From the NCBI RefSeq assembly GCF_017353515.1, contig NZ_JAFMPY010000003.1, positions 62,001-126,000 of the forward strand: a stretch of 64,000 nt of DNA, given 5' to 3'. The position numbers and the translations under genes were made by a program. Within the stretch, counting starts at the first letter, position 1. Each line of letters starts with the position of its first letter. Shown here in pieces: positions 9,917 through 51,947 of the stretch. Below the pieces are notes generated by a model. The model saw only the letters and a program-made list of their open reading frames with translations, made no database searches and had not been told where the DNA came from. The DNA comes from Jiella sonneratiae (lineage in GTDB: Bacteria; Pseudomonadota; Alphaproteobacteria; Rhizobiales; Rhizobiaceae).

Positions 9917-10363
9917 ATGCCGAAATTTCAGACGACCCGCCACGTCAAGCACAGCGCCGACGAAATGTTCGCGCTCGTCGCCGACGTCGAGAAATATCCC
10001 GAGTTCCTGCCCCTCTGCCAGGCGCTGACGATCCGCTCGGAGCGCGAGAAGGAGGGCAAGCGCCTGCTCGTCGCCGACATGACGGTGGCCTACAAGATGG
10101 TGCGCGAGACCTTCACCTCGCAGGTGCTGCTGAAGCCCGAGGAGCGGCGCATCGAGGTTTCCTACGTCAACGGGCCGTTCAAGTTCCTCGACAATCGCTG
10201 GGAGTTCGAGCCGACCGGCGACGACACCTGCGACGTCAAGTTCTTCATCGAATACGAGTTCAAGAGCCGGACCCTCGGCATGCTGATGGGCTCGATGTTC
10301 GACTACGCCTTCCGGCGTTTCGCCGCGGCCTTCGAGGAACGGGCCGACAAGATCTACCGCTGA
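9917..10363 (+). CDS. RatA/Coq10-family START-domain protein
   Basis: The 148-residue protein has the polyketide cyclase/START fold of the RatA/COQ10 family: TRHVKHSADEMFALVADVEKY at the N-terminus, then FLPLC, and the closing MLMGSMFDYAFRRFAAAFEERA helix. Coq10 proteins bind ubiquinone and support respiration; E. coli RatA was described as a ribosome-association toxin. Tight linkage after lipA (4-nt gap) is common in alphaproteobacteria. I favour the ubiquinone-binding role, since no antitoxin gene is adjacent. Confidence 0.88.
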   Translation: MPKFQTTRHVKHSADEMFALVADVEKYPEFLPLCQALTIRSEREKEGKRLLVADMTVAYKMVRETFTSQVLLKPEERRIEVSYVNGPFKFLDNRWEFEPTGDDTCDVKFFIEYEFKSRTLGMLMGSMFDYAFRRFAAAFEERADKIYR

Positions 10364-10389
10364 GCTGAGCCGGACGGTCGCTGCCGGGA

Positions 10390-15969: not shown

Positions 15970-16208
15970 GGCGTCGACCCCTTCGGTGTTGACGGTCCTC
16001 AAACCTGACACGAGCCGAACTCAAGCAAGTTTTGAGGCAAAGGGAAAGGCCTCGCGTCGGTCATTCGATGGCCGGCCAAAGGCTGCACGCGGCTCGGGGA
16101 CACGGTCGGGACTGGCCGATGGGCGGCGATTTCGGCGGCGCGGCACGGCAAGACGGCGGGCTGCCGATCGTCGGCTGGCGCGGCAGGGATCGATCAGTCG
16201 TCCAAACG

Positions 16209-16247
16209 AAAAACACTCCCGGCACCGTCGGGTGCGGGAGTGTTTTT
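16209..16247 (-). terminator. Rho-independent terminator of the initiator tRNA
   Basis: A long dyad starts 4 nt past the tRNA 3' end on the minus strand: AAAAACACTCCC (16209-16220) pairs with GGGAGTGTTTTT (16236-16247), and the inner arms GCACC/GGTGC close a GTCG loop. On the minus strand the stem ends in a T run. There is one bulged base. Confidence 0.85.
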
Positions 16248-16250
16248 CAG

Positions 16251-16327
<77 letters not shown>

Positions 16328-16721
16328 TCGGCAACGGCGCGCTCGGCGCCGTCGGTGGCAGCTATGTATGCGACGGCCGGATGAATGAAAAGGGGGTATT
16401 CGCTATCGCCGCCGGTTTTTTCGCGGCGGGTGTGAATTCCGGCGAAAACGCGTGAAAAAAGCCGCCTAAACGGTTGGGCGGCTTCGCAAATGATCCAAGC
16501 GGGGCGGTGTTTCGGCCGCGGCTTCGCGCGGCCTGACCGGCCGACGCCCCGGCCTGACCCGGCTTTGCAGCGAGTCACCCGGGCGACTCGCGTCGGGCGA
16601 CGTCGACCGGTGCCGTGCCGCGAAAGCCGCATCGCGGGCCGTCGCAGCCTCGGAACGCTGGTCGGCGAGGAATTCGCAGCGAACCAGCGCCCGGCCGGCG
16701 GCGGGCCGGACGTGTCCCGGC
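16328..16721. other. Intergenic region between initiator tRNA and ppa
   Basis: This 394-nt stretch contains the hairpin terminator at 16459-16484 and a second GC-rich dyad with a T-rich loop near 16410-16432. The initiator tRNA promoter must lie within about 16328-16400 on the minus strand, but I could not assign hexamers with confidence. The 237 nt between ppa and the terminator hold no convincing gene. Confidence 0.5.
16459..16484 (-). terminator. Rho-independent terminator downstream of ppa
   Basis: AAGCCGCC (16459-16466) and GGCGGCTT (16477-16484) form an 8-bp stem. On the minus strand it is followed by TTTTTT, so it terminates transcription coming from ppa. It lies 237 nt after the ppa stop, a long 3' region. 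Confidence 0.75.
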
Positions 16722-17282
16722 TCAGTCCTCGGCGGCTTCCGCCGATTCGCCGGCGATCGCATCGGCCCGGTCGATCGCCTCGACGATCAGCTGCCGCGCC
16801 ATGGTGCTGCCGCCCCAGTCGCCGATCTTCACCCACTTGCCGGGCTCGAGATCCTTGTAGTGCTCGAAGAAGTGCTCGATCTGCTTCAGCGTGATCTCGG
16901 GCAGGTCGGTCGGCTCGTAGACCTTGGCGTAGCGCTGGGTGAGGTCGGGCGAGGGCACGGCGATGATCTTCTCGTCCTTGCCCTTGTTGTCCTCCATGAC
17001 GAGGACGCCGATCGGCCGGCAGTTGATGACGCAGCCGGGAAACAGCGGACGGGTGTTGCAGATCAGGACGTCGATGGGATCGCCGTCGTCGGAAAGGGTG
17101 TGCGGGACGAAGCCGTAGTTCCCCGGATAGGTCATCGGCGTGTAGAGGAACCGGTCGACGACGAGGCAGCCGGCGTCCTTGTCCATCTCGTACTTGATCG
17201 GATGGCCGCCGACGGGAACCTCGATGATGACGTTGACGTCCTCGGGGGGATTGATGCCGCGCTTGATCGCGTCGATGCGCAT
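16722..17282 (-). CDS. ppa: Inorganic pyrophosphatase (family I)
   Basis: The 186-residue cytosolic enzyme hydrolyses pyrophosphate to phosphate, pulling biosynthetic reactions forward. The signature DDGDPIDVL near residue 65 holds the metal-binding aspartates. The preceding [12 protein letters not shown] and the later [10 protein letters not shown] complete the active-site pattern. ATG 17282 follows CAGGAG; an in-frame start further upstream only adds an unrelated arginine-rich stretch. It is transcribed in the same direction as ugpC but across a 218-nt gap, probably from its own promoter. Confidence 0.96.
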
Positions 17283-35959: not shown

Positions 35960-37282
35960 ATGCCGGCCGCACAGACGAATTTCGCGCATCACTGGATGCC
36001 GTTCACCAACAACCGCCTGTTCCGCGAAACGCCGCAGATGTTCGCGAGGGCGGAAGGCGTCCACTATGTCACGCCCGAGGGCGACACCATTCTCGACGGC
36101 TCATCCGGCCTGTTCTGCACCCCGGCCGGGCACGGCCGCCGCGAAATCGCCGACGCCGTCCACGCACAGCTGATGACGCTCGACTACACCCCGCATTTCC
36201 AAAGGGGAGCGCCGATCTCCTTCACGCTGGCCGAACGCCTGGCCGAGATCCTGCCGGAGGGGCTCGACCGGGTGTTCTTCGCCTCGTCAGGCTCCGAGGC
36301 CGTCGACAGCGCGATGAAGATCTGCCTGACCTATCACCGCGCCAGGGGCGAGGGTCAGCGCAGCCGCTTCGTCTCGCGCAACTGGGGCTATCACGGGGTC
36401 AATCTCGGCGGCACGTCGCTCGCCGGCATGGTCAACAACCGCCGGGAGTTTTCCGGCGTCACCTGCGACGTCGTCCACATGCGCCACACCTGGACCGAGG
36501 AGCAGCGCTACACCTGCGGCCAGCCGGAGACCGGGGCGGAACTGGCCGACGACCTCGAGGAGATCTGCCGCACCTTTGGCGCCGACACGATCGCCGGCGT
36601 CTTCGTCGAGCCGATCGCCGGGTCGATCGGCACCATCGTCCCGCCGAAGGGCTATCTGGAGCGCCTGCGCGCCATCGCCGACAAATACGGCCTGCTCTTG
36701 ATCTTCGACGAGGTGATCACCGGCTTCGGGCGCACCGGCTCGGCCTTCGCCGGCCAGGAATTTTCGGTCACGCCCGACGTGATGACCATGGCCAAGGCGC
36801 TGACCAACGGCGCCGTGCCGATGAGCGCGGTGGCGACCACCGCGAAGATCCAGGACGCGATCTTCGCCGCCGCCGGCGAGGCCGACCGGCCGGAGCTCTT
36901 CCACGGCTACACCTATTCGGCCCATCCCGTGGCCTGTGCCGCCGCGCTCGCGACGCTCGACGTCTATCGCGACGAGAAGCTGTTCGACCGGGCCCGCGAC
37001 CTCTCGCCCCGCTTCCTCGACCTGATCTTCGGGCTGCGCAACCTGCCGCAGGTCGTCGACCTCAGGGGCTACGGCATGATGGCGGGCATCCAGCTCGCGC
37101 CGGCCGACAAGCCCGGGCTCAAGGGCTCGCTGGTCCAGCGGGCGCTGTTCGACGCCGGGCTGCACGTCAAGGCGACCGGCGACGCGCTGATCGTCGCTCC
37201 GGCCTTCGTCGCGACCGATGGCGAACTCGAGCAGATGACCGACATCCTGCGGCGCGTGCTCGGCCGGGCCGAGCTTCATTGA
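35960..37282 (+). CDS. Class III aminotransferase, omega-amino acid or taurine:pyruvate type
   Basis: The 440-residue PLP enzyme resembles Pseudomonas omega-amino acid:pyruvate aminotransferase. It has HHWMPFTNNRLF at the N-terminus, SGLFCTPAGHGRREI, FFASSGSEAVDSAMKI (phosphate cup), LLIFDEVITGFGRTG, PLP-binding Lys279 in MTMAKALTNGAVPM, and FHGYTYSAHPVACAAAL. Family members use beta-alanine, taurine or other omega-amines and make alanine. Neighbours (IsfD/IsfE-like pair, TauR-like regulator, tauABC) favour taurine, giving sulfoacetaldehyde. Its stop overlaps the end of the convergent regulator gene by 7 nt. Confidence 0.85.
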   Translation: MPAAQTNFAHHWMPFTNNRLFRETPQMFARAEGVHYVTPEGDTILDGSSGLFCTPAGHGRREIADAVHAQLMTLDYTPHFQRGAPISFTLAERLAEILPEGLDRVFFASSGSEAVDSAMKICLTYHRARGEGQRSRFVSRNWGYHGVNLGGTSLAGMVNNRREFSGVTCDVVHMRHTWTEEQRYTCGQPETGAELADDLEEICRTFGADTIAGVFVEPIAGSIGTIVPPKGYLERLRAIADKYGLLLIFDEVITGFGRTGSAFAGQEFSVTPDVMTMAKALTNGAVPMSAVATTAKIQDAIFAAAGEADRPELFHGYTYSAHPVACAAALATLDVYRDEKLFDRARDLSPRFLDLIFGLRNLPQVVDLRGYGMMAGIQLAPADKPGLKGSLVQRALFDAGLHVKATGDALIVAPAFVATDGELEQMTDILRRVLGRAELH

Positions 37283-38883
37283 GCGCCGGCGTCACGCTCC
37301 TCGACGCGCGGCTCCTCCGGCCGGGGCGGAGCCCGGTTCCGCGCCGCGAGACAGGCGTCGAGCGCCTGCCTGAGCGCCGCGATACCCGCTGGTATCCTGG
37401 CATTGTCGATCGGTCCGAAGCCGAGCCGCAGGAAGTTGTGCTCCGGCCGGGGCTGACGGAAGTGGATGTCGCCGACCTCGACCACGGCGCCGTGTCTCGC
37501 CGCCTCGGCCTGGAACGCGCCGGCCGCGATCCCCTCCGGCAGGCGGAGCCACAGGGCGGATCCGCCTGTCGTCATCGTCGCCTCGCAATCCGGCAGCTGG
37601 CGTTCGATCTCGCCGAGCATCGTCGTCCAGCGCCGGGCGAGCATGTCCTGCTGGCGGCGGATATGGGCGTCGTAATGGCCTTCCGACATGAACAGCGCCA
37701 TGGCGCGCTGGTCGAGCGCCGAGGGATGCCGGTACATCAGGCGCCGCAGGGCCCGGAGCTCGACGATCACCTCCGGCGCCGCGACGATGAAGCCGAGCCT
37801 CAGTCCCGGAAACACCGGCTTCGAAAGGCTGCCGGCATGCAGGACGCGGCCGGAACGGTCGTAGCCGCGCAGGGCGTGCTGGCGCGGGCCGACATGGTTC
37901 AGCTCGTGCTCGTAGTCGTCCTCGACGATCAGAAGGTCGTGGCGTTCGGCGGCCTGGAGAAGCGCCAGCCGCCGCTGCATGGTCATGGTGACGTTGGTCG
38001 GGGCCTGATGGCTGGGCGTGACGTAGACGAGGTCGCAGTCATCAAGCCGCTGGTTCGGCCGCGCGCCGCTGGCATCGACGGGCAGGTCGACGATCTCGGC
38101 GCCGTCGAGCTCGAAGATGTTGCGGGCGTCGACATAGCCCGGATTCTCGAAGGCCACCCTGGTTCCCGGGCCACAGAACAGGCGCGAAACCAGATAGACG
38201 GCATTCTGCGACCCGATGGTCACGAGGATCTCGTCCGCGCCGGCCCGGATGCCGCGGCGCGGCAGGATCCGCCGGATGATCTGCTCGATCAGCAGCGGAT
38301 CGTCGGCGTCGACGAGATCGGTCATCAGGCTCTTCAGATGCTCGGCGCGTCCGGCCTGATGGATGCAGTCGCGCCATTTGGTCAGCGAGACCGGGTCGGC
38401 CGCGACCTGGCCGTAGACGAAGGGGTAGGGGAAGCGCTGCCAGTCCGTGGGTTTGCGGATGTTGGGCTGGTGCGACGGCCGCAGCCGCATGTGGCGGGCC
38501 CAGCCGCTGGGCCGGGCGTCGGCGGGGCGGTCGGGATTGAACGGTCCCATCGCGGCGCGGCGGGTCTCGGCCGAAAGGCGCAGGAAGCGCTCGTCGACGA
38601 AGTAGCCGCGCCGCTCGACGGCGGTGAGATAGCCGTCCTCCGCCATCTTCTCGTAGACGAGGGTGACGGTGTTGCGCGACACGCTGAGCTGCCGCGCCAT
38701 CACCCGGGTCGCCGGCAGCGGCTCGTGCGACACGATCGCACCGGACAGGATCGCCTCGACGATCCGCTCCTGGATCTGGCGCTGCAGCGGCCGGCCGGGG
38801 TCGAGAGGGCGCAGCAGGGCATGGTTCGGCATGCGGCTCGAACGGGTGGTCATCGCCGGCTCTCGGTGCGTCGTCCTCTGCAT
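37276..38883 (-). CDS. MocR-family (GntR/aminotransferase) regulator, probable TauR
   Basis: The 535-residue protein has an N-terminal GntR winged helix (about 30-100; MARQLSVSRNTVTLVYEKMA and GYLTAVERRGYFV) and a C-terminal fold-type I aminotransferase domain with the PLP-lysine motif LHAGSLSKPVFPGLRLG. MocR proteins sense an amino compound through bound PLP; TauR activates taurine genes in Rhodobacter and Paracoccus. Location beside the aminotransferase and tauABC, and the CTGGAC repeats at 35844-35901, support TauR. Start 38883 follows AAGG; ATG 38853 is also possible. GabR-type regulators are the alternative. Confidence 0.8.
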   Translation of the reverse strand: MQRTTHREPAMTTRSSRMPNHALLRPLDPGRPLQRQIQERIVEAILSGAIVSHEPLPATRVMARQLSVSRNTVTLVYEKMAEDGYLTAVERRGYFVDERFLRLSAETRRAAMGPFNPDRPADARPSGWARHMRLRPSHQPNIRKPTDWQRFPYPFVYGQVAADPVSLTKWRDCIHQAGRAEHLKSLMTDLVDADDPLLIEQIIRRILPRRGIRAGADEILVTIGSQNAVYLVSRLFCGPGTRVAFENPGYVDARNIFELDGAEIVDLPVDASGARPNQRLDDCDLVYVTPSHQAPTNVTMTMQRRLALLQAAERHDLLIVEDDYEHELNHVGPRQHALRGYDRSGRVLHAGSLSKPVFPGLRLGFIVAAPEVIVELRALRRLMYRHPSALDQRAMALFMSEGHYDAHIRRQQDMLARRWTTMLGEIERQLPDCEATMTTGGSALWLRLPEGIAAGAFQAEAARHGAVVEVGDIHFRQPRPEHNFLRLGFGPIDNARIPAGIAALRQALDACLAARNRAPPRPEEPRVEERDAGAQ

Positions 38884-38960: not shown

Positions 38961-39692
38961 ATGAGCCGCGCATCGCCCAAGCGCCGCATCGGCATCCTCG
39001 GCGGCATGGGGCCGCAGGCGACGGTTCTCCTGATGCAGCGGATCATCGACCGGACGAGCGCGCGCGACGATCGGGACCACGTTCCGATGCTGGTCGACAA
39101 CAACACCCAGGTGCCGTCGCGTATCGCGGCGATCATCGAAGGCACAGGCGAAAGCCCGGCGCCGGTGCTCGTCGAAATGGCGCGGCGGCTCGAGGCGGGC
39201 GGTGCCGAGGCGCTGGCCATGCCCTGCAACACCGCGCATCACTATGCCGGCGAAATCGCCGCCGCGGTGTCGGTCCCGTTTCTCGACATGATCGATCTTT
39301 CCGTCGGCGCGGTGGCGGGCCGGTCCGCCCGAAGGGTCGGCATCCTCGGATCGCCGGCGGTGCGCCTGGCGGGGATCTTCGATCGCACCTTCGCCGGGGC
39401 CGGCATCGCGACGCTCTATCCTGGCGACGAGGCCGCCATGCTGGCGGCGATCCGGCTGGTGAAGGCCGGCGACGCCAGCGGCCGGGCGGCCGCGCTTCTG
39501 AGAGCCGCCGCCGCGGAACTTCACGGCACCGGTGCCGACGTCCTCGTCGTTGCCTGCACCGAATTCTCGGTCATCGCCGGGGCGATCGCCGGCGACTGTC
39601 CGGTCGTCGACACGCTCGATGTGCTGGCCGGCGCCGTGGTAGCCTTCGCTTCCGCCGATCGCGGGCCGGCGCCGCGTTTCGGGGAGGCCTGA
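38961..39692 (+). CDS. Aspartate/glutamate racemase family protein
   Basis: The 243-residue protein has the cofactor-independent racemase pattern: IGILGGMGPQATVLLMQRII at 10-29, first catalytic Cys in MPCNTAHHYAG, second in VVACTEFSVIAG. Both cysteines being present suggests a true amino acid racemase rather than a maleate isomerase-like relative. It starts 78 nt from the divergent regulator and 120 nt before tauA. Its role in a taurine locus is not obvious, as taurine is achiral; it could act on cysteate, alanine or aspartate. Confidence 0.8.
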   Translation: MSRASPKRRIGILGGMGPQATVLLMQRIIDRTSARDDRDHVPMLVDNNTQVPSRIAAIIEGTGESPAPVLVEMARRLEAGGAEALAMPCNTAHHYAGEIAAAVSVPFLDMIDLSVGAVAGRSARRVGILGSPAVRLAGIFDRTFAGAGIATLYPGDEAAMLAAIRLVKAGDASGRAAALLRAAAAELHGTGADVLVVACTEFSVIAGAIAGDCPVVDTLDVLAGAVVAFASADRGPAPRFGEA

Positions 39693-39812: not shown

Positions 39813-40811
39813 ATGATGAATAAGCTAGCAGTCGTTCTCTTGGCAGGCCTGGCCGGCACGGGCCTCCTGGCGGGAACGGCGGTCGCGCAGGACACCGTCA
39901 TCGTCGGCCATTTCGGCAACCCGACGCCGGACCAGGTGGCCGCTGCCGATGCCAAATTCGAGAAGGCCACCGGCTGGAAGATCGACTGGCGCAAGTTCTC
40001 GGCCGGCACCGACGTGATCGCCGCCATGGCCTCCGGCGACGTCAACGTCGCCGAACTCGGCTCCTCGCCCATGGCGATCGCCGCGACGCAGGGGCTCGAC
40101 CTCGAAATGTTCATGGTCGCCGAGGTCATCGGCACGGCGGAATCCCTGATCGTGCGCAACGACGCGGGCATCAAGACGCTGGCTGATCTGAAGGGCAAGC
40201 GGGTCGCCGTGCCGATCGGCTCGACCTCGCACTTCTCCCTGATGGGAGCCTTGAAGCATGCCGGCGTCGATCCGGGCGACGTCACCATCATGAACATGTC
40301 GCCTGACCAGATGGTCGCGGCGTGGCAGCAGGGCGCGATCGACGCCGGCTTCGTCTGGGAGCCCGCCCAGGGCAAGCTGATGGAGAACGGCACGCGGCTC
40401 GTCGGCGCGGACGAGACCGCCGAGTGGGGCTATCCGACCTTCGACGCCTGGGTGGTGAACAAGGACTTCGCCGACAAGCACAAGGACGCGATGATCGCCT
40501 TCACCAAGACCATGGCCGAGGCGAACGACGCCTATCTCGCGGACACCTCGAAGTGGACGGCCGACAGTGCGCCGGTGAAGACCATCGCCGATCGCACGGG
40601 CGCTGCGCCCGATCAGGTGCCGGCGGTCCTGTCGGGCTACACCTTCCTGCCGCTGAAGAAGCAGATCGAGAGCGGCTGGCTCGGCAAGAAGGGCGCCGAC
40701 GCCACCAAGGCGACGGCGGAATTCCTGAAGTCCGCCGGCCGCATCGACAGCGTCAAGGACGACTACACGCCCTTCGTCACCGACGAGTTCGCCAAGGCCG
40801 CGGCCGAATAG
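39813..40811 (+). CDS. tauA: Taurine ABC importer, taurine-binding protein
   Basis: The 332-residue periplasmic protein has a Sec signal ([21 protein letters not shown], cleavage after VAQ near residue 26). TauA-type features: [60 protein letters not shown] and [20 protein letters not shown]. These match taurine-binding proteins rather than general SsuA sulfonate binders. The ribosome site CGGAGAG precedes ATG 39813. It heads tauA-tauB-tauC and is followed by a stem-loop. Confidence 0.88.
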
Positions 40812-40839
40812 GCGGGCCGATCGCCGCAATGCCGACCGT

Positions 40840-40864
40840 TCTCCGCGCCTTGTCGGCGCGGAGA
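40840..40864 (+). other. Intercistronic stem-loop after tauA
   Basis: TCTCCGCGCC (40840-40849) pairs perfectly with GGCGCGGAGA (40855-40864) around TTGTC, 28 nt past the tauA stop and just before the AAGGAGG of tauB. No T run. Probably an mRNA-stabilising or attenuating element. Confidence 0.65.
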
Positions 40865-40882
40865 CCCCCAAGGAGGGACGTC

Positions 40883-41674
40883 ATGGCACTTGAGATCAAG
40901 CAGGCATCCGTCGAATATCCCGCGGTGAACGGCCGGCCGCCGGTCGAGGCCCTGCGCAAGGTCGAGCTGACGATCGAGCCGGGCGATTTTACCGTGGCGC
41001 TCGGCGCATCGGGCTGCGGCAAGTCAACGCTTCTGAACCTGATCGCCGGCTTTCTCGCCCCCTCGTCGGGCGACATCGTCCTCGACGGCGTCCCCGTTTC
41101 CGGGCCGAGCGCCGACCGCTCCGTGGTGTTCCAGAAGCATGCGCTGCTGCCCTGGCTGAACGTTCTCGACAACGTCGCCTTCGGGCTGAAGCTGCAGGGC
41201 CGCCCGCGCGCCGAGCGCCATCAGGTGGCGGAAAAATTCATCGGCCTGCTCGGCCTCGCGGGCTTCGAGAACTCGCCGGTCTATTCGCTGTCGGGCGGCA
41301 TGCAGCAGCGCGTCGGCATCGCGCGGGCGCTGACCTGCGATCCCAAGCTCCTCTTGATGGACGAGCCGCTCGGCGCGCTCGACGCGCTGACCCGGGAGCG
41401 GGCGCAGGAGCTGATCCTGAGGATCTGGAACGAGACCGGAAAGTCGGTCTTCTTCATCACCCACAGCGTCGAGGAGGCGCTGTTCATGGGCACCAGGCTG
41501 ATTGTCATGTCGCCCCGGCCGGGGCGCATCGCCCACCGCTTCGACCTGCCGTTCTCACGGCGGTTCTGCGAAGGGCAGCCGGCGCGCGCGATCAAGGCCT
41601 CGTCCGACTTCATCGCGCTTCGCGAGGAAGTGCTCGCCATCATCTTCGCCGACGAGGAGGAGGAGGCCGCATGA
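40883..41674 (+). CDS. tauB: Taurine ABC importer, ATPase
   Basis: The 263-residue ATPase of the nitrate/sulfonate/taurine type has Walker [13 protein letters not shown] near residue 44, Q-loop [16 protein letters not shown], signature [15 protein letters not shown] and Walker [19 protein letters not shown] perfect AAGGAGG precedes ATG 40883. It overlaps the tauC start by 4 nt (ATGA). The acidic C-terminal EEEEEAA is not a known feature. Confidence 0.9.
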
Positions 41675-42588
41675 GCATCGTTCGACCGACCAACGACGAG
41701 ACCCGGGTGCAGGAGCCGGCGTCGCCTGCGACCTCCGGATGGCGCGAGGCGATCGGCGGCGGCGTGGCGCGGATGGCCAGGAGCCGCCCGACCAAGCCCG
41801 GCGAGACCTATGGCGTGCCGGGGCAGGGCGAGACCGTCGTCCTCAGCCTCGTCACCATCGCGATCTTCATCTTCGTCTGGTGGCTGGTGACGGCGCTCGG
41901 CCTCGTCAAGCCGCTCTTCGTTCCCTCGCCGCAGGCGATCTTCCAGAAGTTCGTCGACGTCCTGACCGACGGCTTCACCGGCACCTCGCTTCTGGCGCAT
42001 GCCGGGATTTCCGCCGCGCGGGTGTTCGGCGCCTTCCTTCTCGCATGTCTGGTCGGCGTGCCGCTCGGCCTCGCCATGGGCATGAGCCCGACGATCCGGG
42101 GCATCTTCGACCCGCCGATCGAATTCTACCGGCCGATCCCGCCGCTCGCCTACCTGCCGCTGATGATCATCTGGTTCGGCATCGGCGAGACCTCGAAGGT
42201 GCTTTTGATCTTCCTGTCGTGCTTCGCGCCGATAGCGCTCGGGGCGAAGTCCGGCGTGCGCTCGGCGGCGATCGAGCAGATCCACGCGGCCTATTCCTTC
42301 GGCGCCTCGCGCTGGCAGGTGATGCGGCACGTCATCCTGCCCTCGGCGCTGCCGGAGATCCTGACCGCCATGCGCATCGGCATCGGCTTCGGCTGGACGA
42401 CGCTCGTCGCGGCGGAGATGGTCGCGGCCACCAAGGGCCTCGGCTACATGGTGCTGACGGCCTCGCAGTTCCTGCAGACCGCGACGGTGATCATGGGCAT
42501 CGTGGTGATCGCCGCGATCGCCTATGCCTTCGACCTCCTGATGCGCTTCATCGAGCGGCGCGTCGTCCCGTGGAAGGGACGGATGTAG
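41671..42588 (+). CDS. tauC: Taurine ABC importer, permease
   Basis: The 305-residue permease has an N-terminal polar stretch of about 60 residues, then six helices. TauC/SsuC features are [20 protein letters not shown] followed by [20 protein letters not shown], and the EAA loop [20 protein letters not shown]. It ends the operon; an inverted repeat starts 10 nt after its stop. Confidence 0.9.
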
Positions 42589-42598
42589 CTGCGGGGAA

Positions 42599-42630
42599 CG
42601 GGCCGACGCCGATCCGATGCCGTCGGCCCG
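42599..42630 (+). terminator. Stem-loop at the end of the tauABC operon
   Basis: CGGGCCGACG (42599-42608) pairs with CGTCGGCCCG (42621-42630) around a 12-nt loop, 10 nt past the tauC stop. There is no T run, so it may act as a weak bidirectional or Rho-assisted terminator between the convergent tauC and the DegT gene. Confidence 0.5.
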
Positions 42631-42747
42631 ATGAGCCGCGCCCGGCGCGCCCGCAATCCCGGCGACAGCGGGCAAACCGCGCGCTTCTCGGCCGGGTCCT
42701 GAATCAAGCGAATGCGGCCGATCGGGCCGGTCCGTCGCGGCCCGCGG

Positions 42748-43950
42748 TCAGCGGCGCCGGCCGCCGATCACCGCGGCGTGGCAGTGCCGGATGATCGCGG
42801 CGATCTCGGCGCAATCCGCCGCGCTGAAGGTCAGCGGCAGACGCATGTCGAACAGGCCGGACAGGACGGCGTCGGTGCGCGGCAGCGACTGTGCCGGCAT
42901 GTAGCGCCAGCTCGTGTGGTTGGACGTGAAGGCCACCGGCTCGTCGGCGCCGAACCATTTCAGGTCGACGCCGAGATCGCCGGCGGCCGCGACGAACGCC
43001 CGGGCGGCTTCGGGCGCGACGTTCGGGATCAGGAACTGGATGGAACTGCCGACGAAGCCCTCCTCGTCGCGCCGCTTCGGCAGGACGATCCCCTCGCAGC
43101 CGGCGAGCCCTGAGGCGACGATCCGATAACGCTCGTTCCAGCGCTCGATGTTCTCTGAAAGACGCTGGAGCTGCGGAACGAGGATCGCCGCGCGCAGATT
43201 GTCCATCCGGCCCGACATGTTCGGGGTTTCGAGGCGGATCGTCTCGAAGACGCTCGGCTCCGGCGCGGCGCCGTGCCGCCCGTAGAGCATGTAGGAGCCC
43301 GACAGGATGATCGCCCTCGCCATGAACTCCGGGTCGTCGGAGGTCAGAAGCCCGCCTTCGCCGGCGTTGAGATGCTTGTAGGTCTGGGTGGAAAAGCAGC
43401 CGGCGAGGCCGAAGCTTCCGCTCTTCCGCCCCTGCCACGTCGCGCCCATCGTGTGGGCGCAGTCCTCGATCATCACGGCGCCGAAGCGCGCGACGACTGC
43501 GGCGACGGCGTCCATGTCGGCGAGATGGCCGCGCATGCTCGACAGCAGGAAGAAGCGCGACCCGGTCGCCTCGAACCGGTGCGCCAAGTCGTCGAGGTCG
43601 ACCACCAGATCCGGAGTGATCTCGACGAGGGCCGGCGTGCCGCCGGCGGCGGCGATGGCGCCGGGCACCGGCGCCAGGGTGAAGGCGTTGGTGAGCACGG
43701 TCTCGCCGGGGCGAAGACCCGCCGCCCGCAGCGCGATCGCCATCGCATAGCCGCCAGACGCGCAGGCGAGGCAGTAGCGCGCGCCCTGATAGGCGGCAAA
43801 GGCGGCCTCCAGCACGGCCGCCGCCGGGGTCTCGCCCGCGACGCTGTTGTAGCGATGCAGGCGGCCGCTGCGCAGAACCTCGACCGCCGCTTCGATGGCG
43901 TCCTCGGCGATCGGCTCCTGCTGGGTGAAGCTTCCTCGAAACGGCTTCAT
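42748..43950 (-). CDS. DegT/DnrJ/EryC1-family PLP-dependent aminotransferase
   Basis: The 400-residue fold-type I aminotransferase has the DegT pattern: ASGGYAMAIALRAAGLRPGE, VLTNAFTLAPVPGAI, VMIEDCAHTMGATWQGRKSG with the PLP-binding Asp, and the Lys192 loop FSTQTYKHLNAGEGG. DegT enzymes usually aminate ketones on sugars or cyclitols. Here it lies 109 nt downstream of the LacI regulator on the same strand, so it probably belongs to the DHPS-type regulon. The substrate is unknown; an amino-sulfonate such as cysteinolate would fit (see findings). Confidence 0.85.
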   Translation of the reverse strand: MKPFRGSFTQQEPIAEDAIEAAVEVLRSGRLHRYNSVAGETPAAAVLEAAFAAYQGARYCLACASGGYAMAIALRAAGLRPGETVLTNAFTLAPVPGAIAAAGGTPALVEITPDLVVDLDDLAHRFEATGSRFFLLSSMRGHLADMDAVAAVVARFGAVMIEDCAHTMGATWQGRKSGSFGLAGCFSTQTYKHLNAGEGGLLTSDDPEFMARAIILSGSYMLYGRHGAAPEPSVFETIRLETPNMSGRMDNLRAAILVPQLQRLSENIERWNERYRIVASGLAGCEGIVLPKRRDEEGFVGSSIQFLIPNVAPEAARAFVAAAGDLGVDLKWFGADEPVAFTSNHTSWRYMPAQSLPRTDAVLSGLFDMRLPLTFSAADCAEIAAIIRHCHAAVIGGRRR

Positions 43951-44059
43951 CGAAGTCTCCGTCAGGAACGGGCCGCGGCCTGCGCTCCGAAAAATCGTGG
44001 CGCCCCGCGGGCGATGGACATCCGCGAGGGCGGCTGAAGCGGCGGGGCCGCCGGCGGCG

Positions 44060-45082
44060 TCACGAGGCCGTTCGCCCCGGAGCGCGGGCGGTCGACTGGC
44101 GGACCACCAGCGCCACCGGCAGCTGCGTCGCAGCTTCCGTCGGGCGCCCCTCGATCCGCGCCATCAGCTTGTCGGCCGCCTGCTCGCCGATCGTGGTGGT
44201 GGGAATGTTCACGGTGGTGAGCGCCGGCGACATGTGGGCCGACATTTCGAGGTCGTCGATGCCGACGAGCGACAGGTCCTCCGGCACCCTGATGCCCCGC
44301 GCCTGGGTCTCGACCAGGCAGCCGAAGGCCTGGATATCGATGCCGCAGACGATGGCGGTCGGCGGCTCGGCGAGGGACAGGAGCGTCGCGCAGCCGGTGC
44401 GTCCCCCCGCCAGCGTATAGGGCTGCTGGCTGATCAGCCATTCCGGCAGCGCCAGTCCGGCGCCGACGATCTCGGCGCGCACGCCCTCGACGCGCAGCCT
44501 CTGGCGGTCGTTGTTGACGCGGTGCCCGGTCACCACGGCGATCCGGCGGTGGCCGAGCCCGATCAGGTGGCGGGCCGCCAGACGCCCGGCCTCGGCATTG
44601 TCGATCGCCACCGTGTCGAAACGCGCGTCCGCGACCCAGGTCAGGACCACCGGGATCGCGGTCTCCTGCAGAATGCCGATGGTCTCCTGCGACCGCGCGG
44701 CGCCGACGAGCATCAGCCCGTCGACGCGGCGCGACAGGAAGGACCGGATCGCCTCCGTCTCGGCCGCGGGACTGTAGCCGGTGCTGGCGACCAGCAGCTG
44801 GTAGCCGTGCGGGGCGAGCCGGCTCTGCATCACCTCCAGCGCGTGCGAGAAGGTGGCATTGTCGAGCGTCGGGACGATCGCCCCGATGGTGTGCGTGGGG
44901 CCGCGGCCGGCCGACACGCCGGGCCGCTCGAGATAGCCGAGGCGCTCGGCGCTCGACAGCACCCGGCGAAGCGTCGCCTGGTTGACGAGTTCCGGCTGCG
45001 CCAAGGCCCGCGAGACGGTGGCCAGCGAGACCTGGCTGTCCCGCGCGACGTCGATCAATCTGGGGCGCGTGCCGCGTGCCAT
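44060..45082 (-). CDS. LacI-family transcriptional regulator
   Basis: The 340-residue regulator has an N-terminal LacI helix-turn-helix (LIDVARDSQVSLATVSRALA at about 9-28) with hinge, and a periplasmic-binding-like effector domain (TIGAIVPTLDNATFSHALEV; AARHLIGLGHRRIAVVTGHR). It is divergent from the importer-hpsNOP operon across a 167-nt region with three TGAAA/TTTCA dyads, which are probably its operators. The effector is likely a sulfonate intermediate. A DegT aminotransferase gene follows it. Confidence 0.9.
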   Translation of the reverse strand: MARGTRPRLIDVARDSQVSLATVSRALAQPELVNQATLRRVLSSAERLGYLERPGVSAGRGPTHTIGAIVPTLDNATFSHALEVMQSRLAPHGYQLLVASTGYSPAAETEAIRSFLSRRVDGLMLVGAARSQETIGILQETAIPVVLTWVADARFDTVAIDNAEAGRLAARHLIGLGHRRIAVVTGHRVNNDRQRLRVEGVRAEIVGAGLALPEWLISQQPYTLAGGRTGCATLLSLAEPPTAIVCGIDIQAFGCLVETQARGIRVPEDLSLVGIDDLEMSAHMSPALTTVNIPTTTIGEQAADKLMARIEGRPTEAATQLPVALVVRQSTARAPGRTAS

Positions 45083-45095
45083 CGAGCATCCATAC

Positions 45096-45109
45096 TGAAA
45101 ATATTTTCA
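45096..45109. promoter_or_regulatory. LacI-type operator O1
   Basis: TGAAAATATTTTCA is a perfect 14-nt palindrome, 13 nt upstream of the regulator's start codon. It shares arms TGAAA/TTTCA with two further dyads on the importer side, so it is probably the autoregulatory site. Confidence 0.65.
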
Positions 45110-45199
45110 TCTGTCTAACCGCGAAATCGCCACCGTTCAAGCGAAGCGCCGACCCAAGCGAGCACGGAATCTTTAGCCGTTGACATTCCCGGATGGCTG

Positions 45200-45214
45200 T
45201 GAAACTTTCTTTCA
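45200..45214. promoter_or_regulatory. LacI-type operator O2 over the importer promoter
   Basis: TGAAACTTTCTTTCA has arms TGAAA/TTTCA with a 5-nt centre. A perfect -35 TTGACA lies at 45180-45185, so O2 covers the expected -10 position 17 nt downstream. The actual -10 hexamer (around AACTTT) is poor. Confidence 0.65.
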
Positions 45215-45220
45215 AAATAA

Positions 45221-45235
45221 TGAAAATAAGTTTCA
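45221..45235. promoter_or_regulatory. LacI-type operator O3 upstream of the importer start
   Basis: TGAAAATAAGTTTCA has the same arms as O2 and lies 21 nt from it centre to centre, on the same DNA face. It sits between the promoter and the ribosome site of the first permease gene, a roadblock position. Confidence 0.65.
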
Positions 45236-45249
45236 TCGGGAGGGAGACC

Positions 45250-46026
45250 ATGCGCGGGAGGAAGGCCGTCGTCGGCCTGTGCGCGGTCGGCGGCATCATC
45301 ATTCTCTGGTTCGCCCTGACCAGCTGGTTCGGGATCATTCCCGCCGGGCGGTTCCCGACGCCGGCGCAGTTCTGGGTCGCGCTGAAGCAGATCGAGCTGC
45401 GCGGCTATGCCGGAAGCACGCTCGTCGACCATGCCCTGCACAGCCTCCGTCTCATCGTCATCAGCTTCCTCGTGGCGGTGGGGACCGGCATTCCGCTCGG
45501 CCTCCTGATGGGCTGGAACCGCCGCGCGGAAGCGCTGATCAACCCGGTCTTCATGCTGATCCGGCCGATCCCGCCGCTCGCCTGGATCCCGCTGGCGATC
45601 CTGTGGCTGGGGCTCGGGGACGCCGCCAAGGTCATGGTCATCTGGTTCGCCGCCTTCGTGCCCTCGGTGATCAACGCCCATGCCGGGGTGCGCAACATCG
45701 ACAAGTCGGTGATCGAGGCGGCCCGCATGCTCGGCACGCCGCCGCTGCGCATGGCGGGCGAGGTGATCGTCCCGGCCTCCCTGCCGATGATCTTCACCGG
45801 CCTCAGGCTGTCGCTGCAGGCCTCGTGGACGACGCTCGTCGCGGCCGAACTCGTCGGCGCGCTGGTCGGCGTCGGCTTCGTCCTCAACATGGCGCAGCAG
45901 GACATCTATCCGGCGATGATCCTCGTCGGCATGCTGACGGTCGGCGTGCTCGGCTGGGCGACGACCTTCGTCCTCGGCCTCGTCGAACGGCGGGTCCTGT
46001 CCTGGTCGCTGCAGGGGAGGGGCTGA
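45250..46026 (+). CDS. NitT/TauT-family ABC importer, permease 1
   Basis: The 258-residue permease has six helices and the family motifs NPVFMLIRPIPPLAWIPLAI and the EAA loop IEAARMLGTPPLRMAGEVIV. The start is ATG 45250 behind GGGAGGGAG; an in-frame ATG at 45193 would place two operators inside the coding region. It is one of two dissimilar permeases in this operon, so the channel is probably a heterodimer. Context (hpsNOP) suggests it imports DHPS or a related sulfonate. Confidence 0.88.
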   Translation: MRGRKAVVGLCAVGGIIILWFALTSWFGIIPAGRFPTPAQFWVALKQIELRGYAGSTLVDHALHSLRLIVISFLVAVGTGIPLGLLMGWNRRAEALINPVFMLIRPIPPLAWIPLAILWLGLGDAAKVMVIWFAAFVPSVINAHAGVRNIDKSVIEAARMLGTPPLRMAGEVIVPASLPMIFTGLRLSLQASWTTLVAAELVGALVGVGFVLNMAQQDIYPAMILVGMLTVGVLGWATTFVLGLVERRVLSWSLQGRG

Positions 46027-46027
46027 C

Positions 46028-46816
46028 ATGGACAGCGCGCCGCTGACACTCGGTCAGACGCTCCGCCTCGGCCTGATCGGTCTTTTCGTCTTCTTCGGCA
46101 TCTGGCTGCTGCTGCCGACCGCCGGGCTCGTTCCGCCGTCGTTCCTGCCGAGCCCGATCGCCGTCGCCGAACGCGTCGCCACGCTCACCACCGAGCCCTT
46201 CGCCGGCGCCACGCTTCCCGCACACATCGCCTACAGCTTCACGCGTTTCATCGCCGGCTTCGCGCTCGCCGCACTCATCGGCATCCCGCTCGGCCTGATG
46301 ATGGGCTGGTTCCGGCTCGTCGACGAGATCGTCAGCCCGATCTTCGACGGCCTGCGCTTCATCGCGCCGATCGCCTGGGTGCCGTTCGCCGCGCTGTGGT
46401 TCGGCACGGGGATCGGCGGGCCGGTGATGATCATCTTCGCCGGCGCCTTCCCGCCCTGCGTCATCAACGCCTATCGCGGCGCGAGGCAGGTCGACCGGCG
46501 CCTCGTGGAGGCCGCCGAAATGCTCGGCACCGGCCATTTCAGAATGATCGTCGACATCCTTCTGCCGGCCTCCGTGCCCTCGCTGGTCGCGGGGCTCAGG
46601 GTCGCCGCGGGGCTCGGCTGGCAGTCGCTGGTCGGCGCCGAGCTGATCGTCGCCTCGACGGGCGTCGGCTTCATGATGGTGCAGGCGCAGGCCAACGTCG
46701 CGACGTCGACCGTCATGGCCGGGATGGTGGCGATCGGCATCGTCGGCCTGGCGATCGACATGGCGCTGCGCTGGACGGAAGCGTCGATCCGCCGGCATCG
46801 CGGCTTGGATGGATAA
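46028..46816 (+). CDS. NitT/TauT-family ABC importer, permease 2
   Basis: The 262-residue permease has six helices, SPIFDGLRFIAPIAWVPFAA and the EAA loop LVEAAEMLGTGHFRMIVDIL. Where permease 1 has IRPIPPLAWIP it has LRFIAPIAWVP. ATG 46028 starts 1 nt after the stop of permease 1, behind GGGGAGGGG. Confidence 0.88.
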   Translation: MDSAPLTLGQTLRLGLIGLFVFFGIWLLLPTAGLVPPSFLPSPIAVAERVATLTTEPFAGATLPAHIAYSFTRFIAGFALAALIGIPLGLMMGWFRLVDEIVSPIFDGLRFIAPIAWVPFAALWFGTGIGGPVMIIFAGAFPPCVINAYRGARQVDRRLVEAAEMLGTGHFRMIVDILLPASVPSLVAGLRVAAGLGWQSLVGAELIVASTGVGFMMVQAQANVATSTVMAGMVAIGIVGLAIDMALRWTEASIRRHRGLDG

Positions 46817-46829
46817 GGGGAGGACCGGT

Positions 46830-47627
46830 TTGGGCTCGATACGCTTCGAAGGCGTCGGAAAGGTTTTCGGCAACGCCAGAACGGGCTTCAAGGCGCTCGA
46901 CGACGTCTCGCTCGCCATCGGCGAGAAGGAGTTCGTGGCGATCGTCGGCCCCTCCGGCTGCGGCAAGACCACCTGTCTGCGCATGGTCGCTGGCTTCGAG
47001 GGCGTGTCGGCCGGCAAGGTGCTGGTCAACGACCGGCCGGTGGTGCGGCCGGGCGCCGACCGCGCGGTGGTGTTCCAGCAGTTCGCCCTGTTTCCGTGGA
47101 AGACGGTGCGCCAGAACATCGAGTTCGGCCTGCGCAACAAGCGCATCGGCAAAGACCAGCGCGATCATCTCGTCGCCGGGTCTTTGAAGCTGATGTCGCT
47201 GGAGAGCCATGGCGACGCCTATCCGCACCAGCTCTCCGGCGGCATGCAGCAGCGCGTCGCGATCGCCAGGGCCTATGTCCTCGACCCCGACGTCCTCTTG
47301 ATGGACGAGCCCTTCGGCGCGCTCGACGCGCAGACCCGCGTCGTCATGCAGGAAGAGCTGGTGCGGCTGGCGCGGGTCAATCCGCGCACCGTCCTCTTCA
47401 TCACCCATGCCGTCGAGGAGGCAGTCTATCTCGCCGACCGCGTCGCGATCATGAGCCGGCGGCCGGGGACGATCAAGGAAATCATCGACGTCAAGACGGT
47501 GCGCCTCGCCGAACGGTGGGACGGCCACGAGCGGATCGAGGACGTCATGGATCTGGAATCCTTCGTCCATCTGCGCACGCGGATCTGGAAGTCGCTGCGC
47601 GAGGAAAAGGCCGAGATCGGCCACTGA
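46830..47627 (+). CDS. NitT/TauT-family ABC importer, ATPase
   Basis: The ATPase has Walker A GPSGCGKTTCLR, Q-loop FQQFALFPWKTVRQNI, signature [15 protein letters not shown] and Walker B LLMDEPFGALDAQTR. TTG 46830 is chosen because GGGGAGGA lies 6 nt upstream and the start then follows the permease stop by 13 nt (265 residues); ATG 46809 would overlap the permease and has no ribosome site, but would add only seven residues. Confidence 0.88.
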   Translation: MGSIRFEGVGKVFGNARTGFKALDDVSLAIGEKEFVAIVGPSGCGKTTCLRMVAGFEGVSAGKVLVNDRPVVRPGADRAVVFQQFALFPWKTVRQNIEFGLRNKRIGKDQRDHLVAGSLKLMSLESHGDAYPHQLSGGMQQRVAIARAYVLDPDVLLMDEPFGALDAQTRVVMQEELVRLARVNPRTVLFITHAVEEAVYLADRVAIMSRRPGTIKEIIDVKTVRLAERWDGHERIEDVMDLESFVHLRTRIWKSLREEKAEIGH

Positions 47628-47734
47628 GCTCCGAAGCCGCCGCGCCGCGGGCCGCCTCGAGGCCCTCGGCGCGGCGTGCGGAGGAATCGTCCCCGCCGCC
47701 GGCGGAGATCCGAGGAAACGAATGGGAGGAAACG

Positions 47735-50174
<2,440 letters not shown>

Positions 50175-50178
50175 GGAG

Positions 50179-50943
50179 ATGTTCGCGGCGACCGATCTCT
50201 TCGACCTCTCCGGCCGCCGGGCTCTGGTGACCGGCGGCAACAGCGGCATCGGCCATGCGATGGCGCACGCGCTGGCGCTGGCCGGCGCTGCGGTCGTCCT
50301 GACGGCACGGCGGGCGGACGAACTGGAAAAGGCAGCGGCCACGCTCTGCGACAAGGGCTTTCAGGCCGATTTTCGGGTCGCCGATCTCGCCGATGCCGGG
50401 GCGCCGGGCCAGCTTGCGGCGTCGCTCGCCGACGCGCCGGTCGATATCCTGGTCAATGCGGCCGGCATCAATCTGCGCCAGCCCTTCGCCAAGGTCTCGG
50501 CCGAGGCCTTCGACCTCCACATGCGGGTGCATCTGCGAGCGCCGTTCCTTCTGACGCAGGCCTTCGCGCCGCAGATGGCCGAACGCCGATGGGGCCGGAT
50601 CGTCAACGTCGCGTCCCTGCAGAGCACGCGGGCCTTTCCCGACTCGGCGCCCTACGGCGCGGCCAAGGGCGGCATCGTCCAGCTCACCCGCGCGATCGCC
50701 GAAGAATGGTCGCGCCACGGTGTCACCTGCAACGCCATCGCGCCGGGCTTTTTCCCGACGCCGCTGACCGCCCCGGTCTTCGGCGACGAGGAGCGGGCCG
50801 GGCGGCTCGCCGCCCAGACCGCGATCGGCCGCAACGGCCGGCTGGAGGATCTCCACGGCGCGACGATCTTCCTCGCCTCCGACGCGTCCGCCTACGTCAC
50901 CGGCCAGACGCTCGCCGTCGACGGCGGCTTCACCGCGAAATAG
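50179..50943 (+). CDS. hpsO: SDR-family dehydrogenase, probable DHPS 2-dehydrogenase (HpsO-like)
   Basis: The 254-residue classical SDR has [20 protein letters not shown] at 19-38, [12 protein letters not shown], the catalytic tetrad in [20 protein letters not shown] with YGAAK, and C-terminal [13 protein letters not shown]. In hps pathways HpsO and HpsP interconvert (R)- and (S)-DHPS through 2-oxo-3-hydroxypropane-1-sulfonate. ATG 50179 lies 4 nt after hpsN behind GAGGAG. The assignment rests on position; SDR specificity is not readable from sequence. Confidence 0.75.
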
Positions 50944-50951
50944 GATCCGCC

Positions 50952-51947
50952 ATGAAAGCCCTGGTCTATACCGGTCCGCACACGCTCGACTATCGCGACG
51001 AGCCGCAACCCGGGCCGACCGATGGCGAGGCGATCGTCAAGGTCGAGGCGGTCGGCATCTGCGGTTCGGACATGCACGCCTATCACGGCCATGATGCGCG
51101 CCGGCCGGCGCCGCTGATCCTCGGTCACGAGGCGGCGGGGACGATCGCTCATGGCCCGCGGGCGGGAATGCGCGTCACCATCAATCCGCTCGTGGTCGAC
51201 CCGCTCTGTCCCTTCGCGGTCGAGGGACGGGCGCATCTGTCGCCGACCCGCCAGATCCTCTCGATGCCGCCGCGCCAGGGTGCCTTCGCGGGCTATGTGC
51301 GCGTTCCCGAGCGCAACCTCCACGTCATCGGCGACGACCTGCCGATCGAGGAGGCGGCGCTGGCCGAACCGATCGCGGTGTCCTGGCACGCGGTGCGGAT
51401 CGGCGCCGAAAGGCTCGCCCGGCCGATCGCGACGGCGCGCGTCGCCGTCCTCGGCGGCGGCGCCATCGGACTTGCCGCAGCTTTGGTTGCGAGACTCTTC
51501 GCCGCCGCCGAGATCAGCGTCGGCGAGACCAATGCGCTGCGCCGCCGGACGCTGGAGGATGTCGGCGGCCTCAAGGTCTACGATCCGGGCGGTGGGGACG
51601 GTCCCGAACCCGACAGCGTCGATCTCGTCGTCGATGCGGTCGGCGCCGGGGCGACGCGCGCCGCCGCGAGCCGCATGGTCCGCCCGGGCGGCGTCATCGT
51701 GCATATCGGCCTTCTGCCCGGGTCGGACGGGCTCGACATCCGCAAGCTGACGCTTCAGGAGGTCACGCTGACCGGATCCTACTGCTACACGCCGCAGGAC
51801 TTCGCCGACACGGTGGCAGCCCTCGAGCGGCGGCGCTTCGGCGCGATCGGCTGGACCGAGCGCCGGAGCCTTTCGGAAGGCGCCCGCGCCTTCGCCGACA
51901 TCGACGCGGGAACCGTGCCGGCGGCGAAGATCGTCCTCTTGCCGTAG
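50952..51947 (+). CDS. hpsP: Zinc-type alcohol dehydrogenase, probable HpsP
   Basis: The 331-residue medium-chain dehydrogenase has catalytic zinc ligands Cys37 (GICGSD), His59 and Glu60 (GHE), and the Rossmann motif VLGGGAIGLAAALVA near residue 160. The four-cysteine structural zinc loop is missing: residues 83-105 (LVVDPLCPFAVEGRAHLSPT) keep one Cys. It is about 15 residues shorter than typical members. It closes the hpsN-hpsO-hpsP run. A short GCCC/GGGC stem with five Ts (51960-51977) could be a weak terminator. Confidence 0.78.
   Translation: MKALVYTGPHTLDYRDEPQPGPTDGEAIVKVEAVGICGSDMHAYHGHDARRPAPLILGHEAAGTIAHGPRAGMRVTINPLVVDPLCPFAVEGRAHLSPTRQILSMPPRQGAFAGYVRVPERNLHVIGDDLPIEEAALAEPIAVSWHAVRIGAERLARPIATARVAVLGGGAIGLAAALVARLFAAAEISVGETNALRRRTLEDVGGLKVYDPGGGDGPEPDSVDLVVDAVGAGATRAAASRMVRPGGVIVHIGLLPGSDGLDIRKLTLQEVTLTGSYCYTPQDFADTVAALERRRFGAIGWTERRSLSEGARAFADIDAGTVPAAKIVLLP

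Follow-up and report, generated by a model that had tools for sequence, protein, structure and literature searches.

The DegT-family aminotransferase gene at 42748..43950 of the window (the whole 64,000-nucleotide stretch of Jiella sonneratiae DNA that was analysed) belongs to a clade with a well-supported role in C3-sulfonate metabolism. The best explanation of its reaction, which we hold tentatively and at slightly less than even weight, is that the enzyme would be a PLP-dependent aminotransferase interconverting cysteinolate and 2-oxo-3-hydroxypropanesulfonate, with HpsN as its partner; both the substrate and the direction are what we infer. The features of the window on which the analysis draws are as follows.

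35960..37282, + strand: AptA-type class III omega-aminotransferase (571.4 bits, cut-off 500)
37276..38883, - strand: MocR/PdxR-like regulator (311.4 bits, slightly under the cut-off of 320)
38961..39692, + strand: CuyB cysteate racemase (NF052483, 278.7 bits, cut-off 190)
39813..40811, + strand: TauA-like substrate-binding protein (nearest taurine-binding protein 6ssy, E 1.2e-72)
40826..41674, + strand: TauB-like ATPase (start codon tentative)
41671..42588, + strand: TauC-like permease, convergent with DegT (gap 159 bp)
42748..43950, - strand: DegT-family aminotransferase, ORF of 400 aa, Schiff-base lysine K192
44060..45082, - strand: LacI-family regulator, upstream of DegT and sharing its strand, placed like HpsR
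45096..45109, no strand: perfect palindrome TGAAAATATTTTCA in the gap from lacI to the first permease gene (permA), a possible LacI operator
45193..46026, + strand: TauC-like ABC permease
46028..46816, + strand: second TauC-like ABC permease
46809..47627, + strand: ABC transporter ATPase
47732..48793, + strand: NMT1-type substrate-binding protein (start codon tentative)
48861..50174, + strand: HpsN, DHPS 3-dehydrogenase (GRYAH motif; 8v35 match)
50179..50943, + strand: HpsO-like short-chain dehydrogenase (start codon tentative; 8wwf match)
50952..51947, + strand: HpsP-like zinc alcohol dehydrogenase (8wwd match)

The initial annotation had proposed a DegT-family gene here, and the reading frame bears this out: it is intact (ATG start, no internal stop codons, third-position GC of 0.91), and its product scores 179.4 bits with PF01041 (DegT_DnrJ_EryC1), for which the cut-off is 19.8. 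A single further PF01041 match in the window genome exceeds 100 bits (G000:C14, 341.6 bits), and the other eight score at most 44.3. The predicted fold is that of the DegT/DnrJ/EryC1/StrS family. K192 aligns with the lysine of 5w70 and 3bn1 and is conserved across at least 97% of 113 sequences; judging from the alignment, the protein has the Schiff-base lysine of an aminotransferase and not the histidine of the dehydratases. The DegT family is known chiefly for amino-sugar synthesis, acting on the ketones of sugars or cyclitols, and the solved structures nearest to the window protein are mostly sugar or cyclitol enzymes. Its identity to KdnA (5k8b), AHBA synthase (1b9h), GDP-perosamine synthase (3bn1), RbmB (5w70), and Fic25 (8gyj) is 14–26% in the rows shown, and the clade has motifs of its own (GRLHRY, SxMRGH, EDCAHT, and SGSYM, in at least 97% of the 113 relatives). 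Among the nucleotide-sugar subfamily models (PseC, LegC, ArnB, WecE, and others), the best match was to PseC, with 117.6 bits against a cut-off of 423.5. A scan of 42500-45300 found no promoter-like sites and two terminator-like sites within DegT (0.9 expected).

As had been annotated, the LacI gene lies upstream of DegT on the same strand. With 109 bp between the two genes, DegT could share control by LacI and the palindrome, and lacI and DegT may well be co-transcribed. A near-identical palindrome, TGAAAATCTTTTCA, occupies the matching place in the hps locus of genome G362. In the window, the site at 45096-45109 is the only one even when up to three mismatches are allowed, and a LacI operator common to DegT, CuyB, or SBP1 was rejected on this ground. 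Since 37 of 100 shuffles also gave at least two matches with up to three mismatches, the weight lies only on the exact palindrome and its likeness in G362.

The hps module itself also proved real. The solved structure nearest to the window HpsN is the sulfopropanediol 3-dehydrogenase of Cupriavidus (8v35, E 1.2e-200), and the window protein has GRYAH and all of the E, H, D, and K positions; the GRY[AS]H motif and the sulfonate-binding and catalytic residues are those given in the available text of PMC11382572. The short-chain dehydrogenase matches 9pvq at 8.8e-88 and HpsO (8wwf) at 3.1e-74, and the zinc alcohol dehydrogenase matches 8wwd at 5.3e-108, an entry titled only "zinc-containing alcohol dehydrogenase" that is probably HpsP from its place beside 8wwe and 8wwf. 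The window thus shares LacI, HpsN, HpsO, and HpsP with the hpsNOP modules with a LacI-type HpsR of Cupriavidus pinatubonensis, Ruegeria pomeroyi, and Dinoroseobacter shibae. It differs from them in the DegT gene beside lacI, the descriptions compared holding none in their available portions, and in an ABC transporter in place of the R. pomeroyi TRAP transporter HpsKLM; the relevant lines of PMC4334477 list hpsR (LacI), hpsKLM, hpsNOP, and slcD for R. pomeroyi, and no DegT gene.

The CuyB racemase, the AptA-type omega-aminotransferase, and the TauABC-like transporter of the window had been overlooked. Compared with cysteate degradation by CuyA (D-cysteate sulfo-lyase) and CuyB, the window has CuyB, whereas a search of its genome for CuyA at E 1e-100 gave no match; compared with taurine utilisation (TauABC, Tpa, TauR, and Xsc), the window has the TauA-like protein, whereas the genome lacks xsc at E 1e-100. 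ComE was likewise absent at 1e-20. A 392-aa GarD-family protein of this genome (L162, G000:C8, 1471-2649) is a possible SuyB, the sulfolactate lyase subunit, on the basis of its size; no SuyB name was returned for it from NCBIfam or PDB. The AptA-type gene adjoins HpsN, CuyA, CuyB, or DegT genes in the window and in four other loci (L046, L127, L143, and L173), accompanied by a MocR-like regulator in the window, L046, and L173. The AptA-type enzyme could belong to this route as an additional aminotransferase, and may be a source of the opposite stereochemistry.

The gene neighbourhoods of DegT relatives were compared in genome contigs and plasmids. From the contigs, the best 80 of 196 loci (56–72% identity) were taken, and 79 remained after a partial one (L066) was dropped; sulfonate genes were called within 9 kb by tblastn at 40% identity or more. 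HpsN, CuyA, CuyB, Xsc, or HpsP was present in 39 of these 79 loci (CuyA and CuyB in 22 each, Xsc in 13, HpsN in 9, and HpsO and HpsP in none), and the other 40, some on short contigs, had no sulfonate gene within 9 kb. NCBIfam names were obtained on one representative each (CuyA of L055, 541.8 bits, cut-off 450; Xsc of L033, 928.5 bits, cut-off 676.4), and the CuyA query, the L094 copy, was outside that scan. Ten records of the plasmid collection, from Paracoccus, Mesorhizobium, Shinella, Ensifer, Ancylobacter, Leisingera, Pseudomonas, and Polaromonas, held the DegT clade at E 1e-60 or better. CuyA was found by tblastn in all ten (62–89% identity in the nine other than the query), and each also had a gene annotated as an amino acid racemase; nine had HpsN (annotated hisD), and a TauA-like and a YeiH-like gene were found by tblastn in seven and six, respectively; HpsO and HpsP were absent within 9 kb in all ten. 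In eight of the ten, cuyA is followed by DegT after a gap of 2–5 nt, and DegT overlaps cuyB by 1–4 nt. Compared with the known CuyA/CuyB system, the operon of the relatives has DegT and a lone HpsN in addition. DegT and sulfonate genes less than 400 bp apart were on one strand in 88 of 88 pairs, which came from 54 of 112 loci, many of them close kin and the window not among the 54.

Of the loci examined, just two have HpsO and HpsP close to DegT, that of the window and that of G362 (L140). In G362 a LacI gene stands divergent to the permease and is followed by permease, ATPase, binding protein, HpsN, DegT, HpsO, and HpsP. This is the hps operon of the window with DegT placed inside. Among other ARRANGEMENTS, G226 and G079 have the order transporter, HpsN, DegT; in G148, HpsN and DegT adjoin CuyA and CuyB; and G392, G309, and G295 combine CuyB, CuyA, HpsN, and DegT in varying order. 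The order is AptA, DegT, HpsN, CuyA, CuyB in G321 and HpsN, DegT, Tpa, MocR, Xsc in G377. Relatives of the TauA-like binding protein of the window accompany DegT in other loci.

Two further features were observed around these genes. In Hoeflea (L010-L014, L016-L018, L020, and L025), the neighbours of DegT are either the taurine genes xsc, tpa, and tauABC or a GMC oxidoreductase gene and others that lead up to xsc. In L094, of Paracoccus alcaliphilus (DegT at 9995-11203, HpsN at 14737-16050), the gene after HpsN, at 16054-16830, encodes an alpha/beta hydrolase, and such a gene is found there in L096, L102, and L103 as well; the hydrolase could release the sulfonate from an ester or amide.

A tree of 113 DegT sequences, 64 sulfonate-linked and 49 stand-alone, was built as a quick tree with SH-aLRT support only. 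With midpoint rooting, the four deepest sequences (L101, L127, L137, and L140) are all sulfonate-linked, and linked copies are also spread over much of the remaining tree. The linked or stand-alone label changes 11 times on the tree, compared with 37 in shuffles. Twenty-seven stand-alone copies form one clade, mostly of Rhodobacterales, which differs from the other rows at two columns, 186 (F/Y) and 240 (L/Y), counting majority residues held by more than 80% of each group. A different pocket in this clade was therefore rejected, and the two columns give no sign of another substrate. The neighbours of the 49 stand-alone loci were scanned for sugar genes: of 125 neighbour ORFs listed, 89 from 45 loci were scanned and gave 97 Pfam families. 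Among the 25 commonest families, those of sugar-nucleotide type were NTP_transferase (4) and hexapeptide (6), as in GlmU, and there was no epimerase or glycosyltransferase.

Across a class-level set of 289 genomes, DegT (E 1e-60) was found in 15, HpsN (E 1e-130) in 22, and both in 14. HpsN was thus present in 14 of the 15 DegT genomes and in 8 of the 274 others (Fisher one-sided 2e-17, uncorrected for kinship), and the two genes co-occur at class level; the exception is G195, which lacks HpsN at E 1e-130. CuyA exceeded its cut-off in 7 of the 15 DegT genomes and 18 of the 274 others, and CuyB in 5 and 11, respectively. Six genomes (G022, G117, G193, G195, G222, and G226) keep DegT although searches for CuyA (E 1e-100) and CuyB (E 1e-40) gave no match in them, G193 and G226 being 64% and 70% complete. 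The initial annotation had named co-occurrence of the clade with hpsNOP as a check. It held for HpsN; the commonest partners of the clade are CuyA, CuyB, and HpsN, and not HpsO or HpsP, which lay within 9 kb of DegT in none of the 79 contig and ten plasmid loci.

The link is weaker in the family of G154, whose DegT was placed among Rhodobacteraceae in the tree. DegT (E 1e-90) was found in 104 of the 129 genomes of this family, and HpsN proper in 65 (60 at E 1e-130 and 5 as fragments of at least 64% identity). Both were present in 63 of the 104 DegT genomes, and 41 of the 64 genomes without HpsN still hold DegT, so that HpsN seldom occurs without DegT and DegT often occurs without HpsN. CuyA (E 1e-125) was found in 47 of the 129 genomes, in 44 together with DegT. 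A second HpsN-like group also occurs in these 129 genomes (44–51% identity to the Paracoccus HpsN, e.g. G372:C50:9912-11153); it scores about 343–413 bits among the matches listed to E 1e-90, compared with at least 494 bits for whole copies of HpsN proper. When solved histidinol dehydrogenases are compared with the window HpsN, their scores do not exceed about 224 bits.

DegT belongs to an amino-sugar family, but many of its relatives lie within clusters for the breakdown of algal sulfur compounds, and it therefore probably transfers an amino group on such a compound, a reaction to which the literature examined assigns no gene. In the reaction that we favour, DegT would act at C2, interconverting cysteinolate and 2-oxo-3-hydroxypropane-1-sulfonate with glutamate/2-oxoglutarate or alanine/pyruvate as the partner pair, and would thereby join the amino series (cysteinolate and cysteate) to the oxo and hydroxy series (2-oxo-3-hydroxypropanesulfonate, DHPS, and sulfolactate). 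HpsN has the build of its relative histidinol dehydrogenase, which makes an amino acid from an amino alcohol, and would turn cysteinolate, likewise an amino alcohol, directly into cysteate; in the relatives CuyB would racemise cysteate for CuyA to cleave into pyruvate, ammonia, and sulfite. The series ketone, DegT, cysteinolate, HpsN, cysteate, CuyB, CuyA would use each enzyme of the operon once, and DegT and HpsN would mirror HisC and HisD, which act in one series in histidine synthesis. The reverse direction, from cysteinolate to the ketone, is chemically just as possible and may suit the window genome, in which, with CuyA, Xsc, and ComE not found at the thresholds used, an amino-sulfonate would flow into the hps route. 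An SHMT-like cleavage of cysteinolate to taurine, conceived on chemistry alone, was dropped for lack of evidence.

The action of HpsN on cysteinolate is likewise inferred. According to the available text of PMC11382572, CpHpsN accommodates L-cysteate just as it does its product R-sulfolactate, contacts the sulfonate through His126 and Lys353, and is inactive on L-histidinol; that text does not contain cysteinolate. In an alignment of 57 HpsN rows (L112, the G028 operon copy, and L092, the G148 copy, were labelled from short stretches), every CuyA/CuyB-linked sequence (30 of 30) and every HpsO/HpsP-linked one (16 of 16) has the His and Lys that bind the sulfonate as well as the catalytic Glu, His, and Asp. 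The lone HpsNs therefore still resemble enzymes for C3 sulfonate alcohols; by the same residues they look no different from DHPS enzymes and bear no mark of a switch to cysteinolate. Eleven loci were also chosen in which CuyA adjoins HpsN with DegT elsewhere; CuyB was found in 10 of them and HpsO or HpsP in none within the stretch taken, three of the contigs ending early. L163-L173 are compact lone HpsN-CuyA-CuyB cassettes, several with what reads by eye as a divergent LysR-like gene. The 2024 survey of HpsN retained, according to the part of PMC11382572 available, a sequence only when hpsO and hpsP lay close to it (272 of 1000), so that lone-HpsN loci were excluded by design.

Several observations count against the cysteinolate reaction. 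No sulfonate gene lies within 9 kb in the 40 contig loci mentioned above, from the best 80 of 196, and HpsN, CuyB, and CuyA alone would degrade L-cysteinolate, so that the make-up of the operon does not require DegT to be a cysteinolate aminotransferase. The window genome gave no match to CuyA or Xsc at 1e-100 or to ComE at 1e-20. The window DegT is convergent to the CuyB-transporter genes and stands outside their group, the Hoeflea copies neighbour xsc with HpsN absent within 9 kb, and DegT is kept without HpsN in G195 and in the 41 genomes of the G154 family.

A further objection is that the interconversion of cysteate and sulfopyruvate would suit nearly the same loci. DegT as a cysteate:2-oxoglutarate aminotransferase (Coa), which would supply CuyB and CuyA by way of sulfolactate or run in reverse, is possible, if rather doubtful. 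Sulfopyruvate is a keto acid like 2-oxoglutarate, which such enzymes already bind, and the close spacing of DegT between cuyA and cuyB in eight plasmid loci fits this role. In Mesorhizobium L096, a separate gene group about 7 kb upstream includes the gene for an Ldh-family oxidoreductase, a kind of enzyme for which sulfolactate could be a substrate of oxidation. The gene for the cysteate aminotransferase of R. pomeroyi is given as unknown in the text available of PMC11382572. On the other hand, the route needs a sulfolactate dehydrogenase, and none is named as running on with DegT in the incomplete gene table of the ten plasmid loci; DegT enzymes are best known on sugar or cyclitol ketones; and the six genomes that keep DegT where CuyA and CuyB were not found also speak against it. 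The lack of such a named dehydrogenase, together with a link of DegT to HpsN that is tighter than that to CuyA or CuyB, led us to favour cysteinolate over cysteate.

The initial annotation had proposed that DegT deaminates cysteinolate to 2-oxo-3-hydroxypropanesulfonate, taken as exactly the intermediate of HpsO and HpsP, which would reduce it to DHPS for conversion to sulfolactate by HpsN. We consider this route unlikely. DegT is tied to a full hpsNOP set in the window and G362, HpsP lies in a short stretch around HpsN in 9 of the 15 DegT genomes, and a way into sulfolactate would be useful in the window genome, where CuyA was not found at 1e-100. However, in the available account (PMC11131964, 2024), both R- and S-DHPS are oxidised by HpsO and HpsP at the C3 hydroxyl, giving sulfolactaldehyde, so that the 2-oxo compound would not be exactly that intermediate. 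The position, C2 or C3, is disputed in print, the accessible part of PMC11382572 still terming the two enzymes DHPS-2-oxidoreductases. Many DegT operons, moreover, hold HpsN, CuyA, and CuyB without HpsO or HpsP, and the CuyA/CuyB operons suit amination at least as well as the deamination into the DHPS route that had been assumed. The earlier proposal was right on the field of metabolism, may be right on the reaction, and appears from the gene content of the loci to be wrong on the usual partner enzymes.

Action on taurine and sulfoacetaldehyde, or on another sulfonate amine, seems improbable to a similar degree. It would account for the xsc gene within 9 kb in 13 of the 79 loci from the best 80 of 196 (five of them also with tpa), for the HpsN-DegT-Tpa-MocR-Xsc order of G377, and for the resemblance of the transporter to TauABC; yet five of the 13 xsc loci already hold a class III aminotransferase of taurine type, and the largest linked group is that with CuyA and CuyB. 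An ordinary sugar or cyclitol aminotransferase lying here by chance is very hard to credit: its fold, its nearest solved structures, the 49 stand-alone copies, and a UDP-glucose-dehydrogenase-like gene seen by eye about 1.5 kb downstream of DegT in L061 are outweighed by the model cut-offs and the neighbour genes, which are sulfonate and not sugar genes in 64 of the 113 loci and, in the 25 commonest of the 97 families from the 89 neighbours scanned, were not the mostly sugar-nucleotide or cyclitol genes that would have spoken against a sulfonate role.

Cysteinolate is a widespread solute of marine microalgae at levels in the range of DMSP and DHPS, according to the available text of PMC8703288, and cysteinolic acid has been detected in Pelagibaca bermudensis (PMC9695272, in the part available). 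A literature search, mostly of non-subscription papers, found no bacterial enzyme named for cysteinolate breakdown in the text available, and no DegT enzyme tied to a sulfonate. A review of cysteinolic acid metabolism by Burchill and Williams (2022) may already propose an aminotransferase.

A broader role, which we regard as a long shot, is that the clade would serve as a cysteinolate aminotransferase both ways, the operons breaking down algal cysteinolate and its ketone, and the copy in 104 of the 129 G154-family genomes making cysteinolate for the roseobacter sulfonolipid SAL. SAL carries cysteinolic acid according to the accessible part of PMC11631085, an earlier proposal for its head group having been aminopropanesulfonate (PMC8319176, in the portion available), and no source of the head group is named in the literature examined, as far as its available text goes. 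A DegT group is absent from Table 2 of PMC8319176, on groups unique to SAL producers, in the form available, which weighs slightly against this role.

The operon CuyA-DegT-CuyB-TauABC-HpsN points to named genes, in soil and marine bacteria that can be cultured, with which the entry of amino-sulfonates into central metabolism can be tested, and its DegT is also a candidate for the as yet unassigned gene of the cysteate aminotransferase (Coa).
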